Origin: Candidatus Eiseniibacteriota bacterium
GTDB lineage: Bacteria > Orphanbacterota > Orphanbacteria > Orphanbacterales > Orphanbacteraceae
Direction of reading: 5' to 3'
Assembly (NCBI GenBank): GCA_024276995.1
Contig: JAJRWB010000001.1
Location: forward strand, 62,001 to 126,000
Length of the DNA stretch: 64,000 nucleotides
Shown here: in pieces, positions 36,923 through 37,471 of the stretch
How positions within the stretch are numbered: the first letter of the stretch is position 1
How the letters are laid out: every line of letters begins with the position of its first letter
The notes under the pieces: model-generated
What the model was told of the DNA's origin: nothing
Database searches by the model: none
Seen by the model: the letters and a program-made list of their open reading frames with translations, nothing else
Program-made: the position numbers and the translations under genes

Positions 36923-37436
36923 ACGCCCTCGTGATTCGATAGAAGAAGAGAATCCCCGCGCATTCGTGCTGCGCGGGGATCCGATGAAGCGTTCCCCGCG
37001 TGTACCGTGTGCCTGGGAATCCGTGTAACTCGTATCCAAGTCATCTGAGATCAGCCCACGACCCGGCAAATCACGGGTACGGCAGGGAACGATGTCCCGT
37101 CGACCAGTGTTCTGCCCGGAAGGAGCAGCAATGACGATGCCACCCGGCCCGACCGGGACGCCCACCCCCGGCACCGGCACCGATCCCGGTCCGTTCGAAC
37201 GGTGGAACCGGTTGAAAAGAAAGGTGATGTGCATCGTCGCTCCGCCTGAAGATTCTCCCGTTTCCCTCGATCTCCCTGTGGGGCGGTCCGCTGGAAACGG
37301 GGCAAATCGCCCCGCAATCGGAAGGGTGCGGCGGGAGACAGCCCTCCAGATCGTGGTCTCCGCTGCGGTTGCAGGCTGGGGAATCTTTCCCACTGCTCGG
37401 TGGAATTCCTGCAGGCAGCATCTAACCTATTAGCTT
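36923..37436 (-). ncRNA. Long 5' leader (or attenuated small RNA) of the metalloprotease gene
   Basis: This stretch of more than 500 bases has no convincing gene. It lies between a strong minus-strand promoter (37443-37471) and the protease ATG. It holds several GC-rich inverted repeats: CGGGGC/GCCCCG at 37298-37314, and ACCGGGA/TCCCGGT flanking roughly 37150-37190. It ends in an antiterminator/terminator pair. It does not show tmRNA, RNase P or 6S signatures that I can recognise. It may be a riboswitch-like leader or a stand-alone RNA of about 490 nt with occasional readthrough. Confidence 0.5.
36941..37000 (-). promoter_or_regulatory. Transcription attenuator: mutually exclusive antiterminator and terminator hairpins
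   Basis: Minus-strand segments in order: CGCGGGGA (37000-36993), ATCCCCGCGC (36980-36971), GCGCGGGGAT (36961-36952), then the T-rich TCTCTTCTTCT (36951-36941). Segment 2 can pair with segment 1 (8 bp, antiterminator) or with segment 3 (10 bp, terminator). The terminator ends 19 bases before the protease start codon. Confidence 0.7.
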
Positions 37437-37442
37437 ACTTAT

Positions 37443-37471
37443 ATTTTACCGCACAATCCCCTGCCGGTCAA
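37443..37471 (-). promoter_or_regulatory. Strong sigma-70-type promoter for the leader/metalloprotease
   Basis: Minus-strand TTGACC (37466-37471) and TAAAAT (37443-37448) with a 17-base spacer, in an AT-rich patch unusual for this window. It is divergent from the lipoprotein promoter at 37529-37558. Confidence 0.7.

Follow-up and report, generated by a model that had tools for sequence, protein, structure and literature searches.

The question raised by this locus is what the long leader upstream of a secreted metalloprotease gene contains, in a stretch of 64,000 nucleotides (here called the window) from the genome of a Candidatus Eiseniibacteriota bacterium. An earlier note had proposed a new riboregulator of riboswitch or attenuator design. 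A riboregulator is indeed present, as a conserved and covarying RNA within the leader, and its relatives, promoters and neighboring genes point to a different kind of RNA from the one proposed. Coordinates of the relevant features are given in Table 1.

Identification of a short structured RNA in the leader

Comparison of the leader DNA with the other six genomes of the same family by blastn revealed a single conserved block (about 37105-36972) in all six. This 3' portion of ~130 nt is the only part of the leader matched in relatives; the upstream ~300 nt are less conserved, which speaks against the upstream 400 bases being the sensing part, as the earlier note had it. Alignment of the seven family copies yielded a rod-shaped fold over ~104 positions. 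A covariation test of the kind that had been suggested for leaders of relatives did find covarying stems, and they lie in this 104-nt RNA: among 45 sequences, 21 of the 32 pairs were changed on both sides, 92.9% of the cells pair, and 149 pair cells were doubly changed, compared to 44.7 +/- 6.6 in shuffled and no more than 34 in slid controls. One hairpin of the initial fold (GACUUG/CGAGUU) was dropped, and GGCU/AGUY was adopted instead on the basis of distant homologs.

A protein-coding leader was also considered, with the frame upstream of the protease ATG being open to 37393. It was rejected because the RNA covaries and the length shifts are not multiples of three (96 vs 100 nt). In addition, a Pfam search with the leader ORFs gave no match. 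The view that no convincing gene lies between the upstream promoter and the ATG is therefore right for proteins, but it overlooked the 104-nt RNA and a sigma-54 promoter.

Table 1. Features around the short RNA in the window (positions in the window)
Feature	Position	Strand	Evidence or remark
sigma-70-type promoter TTGACC-17-TAAAAT	37471-37443	-	only match in 1.1 kb (0.2 expected); family-conserved
sigma-54 (-24/-12) promoter TGGCATCGTCATTGCT	37142-37127	-	10/11 consensus; RNA start predicted near 37117
Predicted primary transcript of short RNA, ~165-175 nt	37117-36942	-	inferred from sigma-54 spacing and terminator
Short 6S-related RNA, 104 nt, structured and conserved	37092-36989	-	blastn, alignments, covariation, covariance-model matches, reciprocal matches with 6S
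P1 of short RNA, 10-bp closing stem	37091-37082/36999-36990	-	comparative fold
P2 of short RNA	37080-37072/37009-37002	-	comparative fold
Near-invariant core GGCUGAUC of short RNA	37056-37049	-	alignment
Intrinsic-terminator-like hairpin, 13 pairs	36982-36950, tail to ~36940	-	T-rich but interrupted tail
Secreted metalloprotease, HEMGHSFYALDEY motif, T9SS-type C-terminal domain	36922-33632	-	ortholog after short RNA in 7/7 family genomes
PF03706 (LPG synthase TM-type) membrane protein	33588-32668	-	domain match
BMC-H shell protein, first gene of microcompartment operon	32575-32279	-	PF00936, 105 bits
Rest of BMC operon: EutN/CcmL, aldehyde dehydrogenase (two frames), double-BMC shell protein, further EutN/CcmL, class II aldolase	32226-28629	-

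Promoters and terminator of the short RNA

A TGGCAC-N5-TTGC element is located 47-53 nt before the short RNA in all seven family genomes. Across 57 loci, a sigma-54 element with at least 9 of the 11 consensus positions was found in 51. The reverse strand of the loci gave 1/57, and control windows gave 6/162. In the G331 group, the element is often more distant (-64 to -118). All of the 30 carriers tested encode RpoN.

The sigma-70-type promoter, which was the starting point of the earlier reading, held up in the comparison, being kept at -376 to -396 from the short RNA in 7/7 family genomes. No equivalent upstream promoter was detected at any of the other 50 loci, and no sigma-70-type promoter was found between the short RNA and the protease start. 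The ~300 nt separating the sigma-70 and sigma-54 promoters in the window (37443-37142, minus strand) have retained their length, not their sequence, within the family. A conserved 5' tail motif, ACAACTGAATA, occurs 14-29 nt before the short RNA at 23 of the 57 loci (L035, L038, L086, L088-L091, L099-L101 and others) and nowhere else in the flanks, and in the window's family a similar sequence (AACRGGTTAG) is located just after the sigma-70 promoter.

The terminator hairpin claimed just before the protease ATG does exist, but its tail is interrupted, and comparable hairpins 3' of the short RNA are present in only four of the seven family genomes (the window's included) and missing in the other three. 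Terminators also follow the short RNA at many distant loci, and in the G140 group an extended closing stem with a U-run seems, by eye, to act as one. For the predicted transcript, the minimum free energy is -81.1 kcal/mol, with the RNA fold and the terminator both formed. The proposed 8-bp antiterminator can be drawn, but a fold forced to contain it is less stable by 12.6 kcal/mol (-68.5 vs -81.1 kcal/mol). The 5' arm of the antiterminator coincides with the 3' strand of P1, and this stem is already fully formed by the time the terminator is transcribed.

Distribution across genomes

The sample consisted of genome sequences, mostly metagenome assemblies, and the E-values of the covariance models are rough. 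The short RNA is present in all seven family genomes, each time before the orthologous protease gene. The first covariance model, built on these seven copies, recovered all of them and eight genomes of other phyla, the last one weakly. With models R2 and R3, the RNA was detected in three more phylum-level groups (8/8, 17/20 and 32/47 of the genomes, respectively). A survey across the domain gave matches in 20 of 386 genomes, of which the weakest are doubtful. According to these matches, ~60 genomes outside the family, belonging to at least three further phylum-level groups, carry the short RNA; depositor names among the genomes include Candidatus Eisenbacteria and Gemmatimonadetes. Four weak matches (L042, L136, L138 and L140) were left without assignment. 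An apparent second copy in G004 (C2) proved to be a chance 13-mer, and pattern matches in an actinomycete, Nesterenkonia, Ktedonobacteraceae and Virgibacillus were also dismissed as chance. The short RNA was not found in the viral contigs searched.

Relation to 6S RNA

The leader matched no Rfam family at the gathering threshold and none credibly at E<=10, and no known riboswitch family was matched in the Rfam searches. To this extent the impression that it resembles no known class was correct, but the RNA is related to 6S RNA (RF00013). The window copy itself has no 6S match in Rfam even at E<=10. Four other elements (L038, L039, L100 and L106) are matched by the Rfam 6S model exactly end to end, with 29.2, 26.6, 30.1 and 24.9 bits, respectively; the best of these scores is under the gathering cut-off of 46.4 bits and hence below the threshold for membership. 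In the opposite direction, 106 kb of sequence surrounding 37 canonical 6S genes were searched with model R2, and each of the 13 matches falls exactly on a 6S gene (best E 1.1e-5). Model R3 gave five matches over the same 106 kb, again all exactly on 6S genes, and its genome-wide matches in G214 and G344 coincide with independently found full-length 6S genes. The alignment shows ends common to both RNAs (UUCCCUGC..UCGUGA / CACACGG..GCGGGGAA), and the reciprocal model matches and the covariation demonstrate that the 6S closing stem with its conserved 5' and 3' ends has been kept. Judged by this comparative evidence, the short RNA is a cut-down relative of 6S RNA and not an unknown aptamer.

Most of the carriers checked hold a separate full-length 6S gene elsewhere in the genome, such as that of G000 (C71:944-1127), which has a sigma-70 promoter. 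A search with strict filters gave no clear full-length 6S in G075, G216 and G345.

Another 6S-like RNA of ~117 nt, with the core UUUGGACCGAUCC, was noticed in seven of the eight genomes of the G140 group (L092-L098, e.g. L094:1501-1618); G140 has a third 6S-type RNA gene. The ~117-nt RNA has no sigma-54 site, and sigma-70-like promoters are present in several cases. Sub-threshold cspA-like cold-shock matches (26-42 bits) adjoin it at L092, L094, L095, L096 and L098.

Gene context and microcompartment operons

In the window, the protease and membrane-protein genes lie between the short RNA and the microcompartment (BMC) operon. BMC genes are present in all seven family genomes; where the contig allowed a check, in five genomes, they share the strand of the short RNA and are 3.6-5.5 kb downstream of it. 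At 36 of 49 loci outside the family, the 1.5 kb downstream of the short RNA contain PduL and/or BMC shell genes. The link is not universal, as G445 carries the short RNA and has no BMC gene. In other phyla, the genes downstream of the short RNA differ and are unrelated to the protease. About a dozen loci have a separate sigma-70 promoter for the downstream gene; in the G075 group, such a promoter stands between the short RNA and pduL at most loci with downstream sequence. The BMC aldehyde dehydrogenase of the window is split over 31884-31357 and 31353-30484 (minus strand), through either a frameshift or an assembly error.

Proposed role and alternative explanations

We consider it likely that 37117-36942 (minus strand) specifies a stand-alone, minimal 6S-type RNA of ~170 nt that is controlled by sigma-54, and we infer that this RNA probably binds RNA polymerase. 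The fallback suggestion of a stand-alone RNA of about 490 nt had thus come close, except for the length. Once an enhancer-binding activator is on, sigma-54 RNA polymerase would make the RNA from the -24/-12 promoter, and the hairpin terminator would end it. The predicted product is a rod in which the closing stem of 6S leads through an internal-loop region into an apical arm that is very short and bears the invariant GGCUGAUC. It probably binds the polymerase as a mimic of an open promoter, and short product RNAs (pRNAs) starting at GAU may be copied from it. The predicted pRNA would begin AUCAGCCC, its start being presumably the U of GGCUGAU, the position that aligns with the start in E. coli. 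Binding would turn down part of transcription during the sigma-54 programme, and the position of the RNA at the head of BMC operons suggests joint switching of RNA and operon. In the family of the window, transcription from the sigma-70 promoter ~380 nt upstream would also cross the RNA and continue to the protease and BMC genes, so that the terminator may limit this read-through as well.

The upstream sigma-70 promoter is also part of the original proposal of a cis-acting riboswitch or attenuator, in which the short RNA senses a ligand and toggles antiterminator and terminator for the protease operon. Such a switch agrees with the conservation of that promoter in 7/7 family genomes and with the terminator in 4/7, one arm of which could pair with P1 (3' strand). 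It also agrees with the lack of any sigma-70-type promoter found between RNA and protease. Nevertheless, we regard it as rather improbable: the short RNA has its own sigma-54 promoter and is related to 6S, other genes, often with their own sigma-70 promoter, follow it in other phyla, and three of the seven family genomes have no terminator. The energetics weaken the attenuator reading further, since the antiterminator is less stable and P1 forms first. In the four family genomes that have a terminator, it may still attenuate the protease operon.

Two other explanations were considered. Because the alignment with 6S shows the loss of the arm with which sigma-70 region 4 makes contact, a 6S-derived RNA might bind another form of polymerase, such as the core enzyme, as the 6S-related Ms1 does (PMC9130861), or the sigma-54 holoenzyme, and the tight linkage to sigma-54 promoters would fit this reading. 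This is unlikely in our view, because 6S-1 truncated of the same arm still binds the sigma-A holoenzyme (PMC8876501). An unrelated base-pairing sRNA, with 6S-like ends arisen by chance or convergence, is very improbable; sub-threshold Rfam scores and a near-invariant core that could serve as a pairing seed are consistent with it, whereas both the ends and the core are common with 6S, and the R2 matches fell on 6S genes without exception.

The usual view of 6S RNA is that of a single, general brake acting on the main polymerase. If the minimal 6S-type RNA proposed here acts as suggested, a second, cut-down 6S-type RNA that has a sigma-54 promoter and stands beside the full-length one, and before BMC operons in several phyla, would imply dedicated polymerase decoys for particular programmes. 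As a natural experiment, the short RNA would also show which 6S parts are indispensable. More tentatively, and with less than even confidence, these RNAs may form a separate conserved class of minimal, sigma-54-controlled 6S-type RNAs whose target, a form of polymerase or a set of promoters, differs from that of canonical 6S and which couple BMC metabolism to global transcription.

Comparison with known systems

No prior description of 6S RNA in connection with BMC, sigma-54, rpoN or candidate phyla was found in the literature, of which the coverage was partial, so that absence is not proof. For the E. coli ssrS gene, NtrC ChIP gave a weak signal that EMSA did not confirm (PMC4066584). The short RNA has in common with 6S RNA (SsrS) the closing-stem ends, an interrupted second helix, the rod fold and the base of the apical arm, where it has GUGGGCU/AGUC and 6S has UUUUGAGCC/GGUUCAAAA. 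The two differ in core length (104 nt vs ~185 in 6S), and ~85-97 nt of the distal part of the 6S apical arm, including the '-35'-like region, are absent from the short RNA. The region of the 6S central bubble is partly paired (P3) in the comparative fold, leaving only a small internal loop. Unlike 6S, moreover, the short RNA scores below the Rfam threshold, has a sigma-54 promoter and is linked to BMC operons.

More than one 6S-type RNA per genome is known from B. subtilis (6S-1/6S-2) and L. pneumophila (6S/6S2) (PMC4211561), as in carriers of the short RNA. However, the B. subtilis siblings are described as keeping the conserved 6S structure, whereas here one copy is cut down and has a sigma-54 promoter. 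Ms1 is likewise related to 6S and binds RNA polymerase, but it is actinobacterial and binds the core enzyme. The nearest experimental backing comes from artificial B. subtilis 6S-1 RNAs of 78-82 nt without the -35 arm (6S78/6S82cp), in which, as in the short RNA, a central region lies between short arms and no -35-like region is present; they bind the holoenzyme about tenfold more weakly, but they still template pRNA and are released (PMC8876501). Those are laboratory constructs, whereas the short RNA is natural and conserved across phyla.
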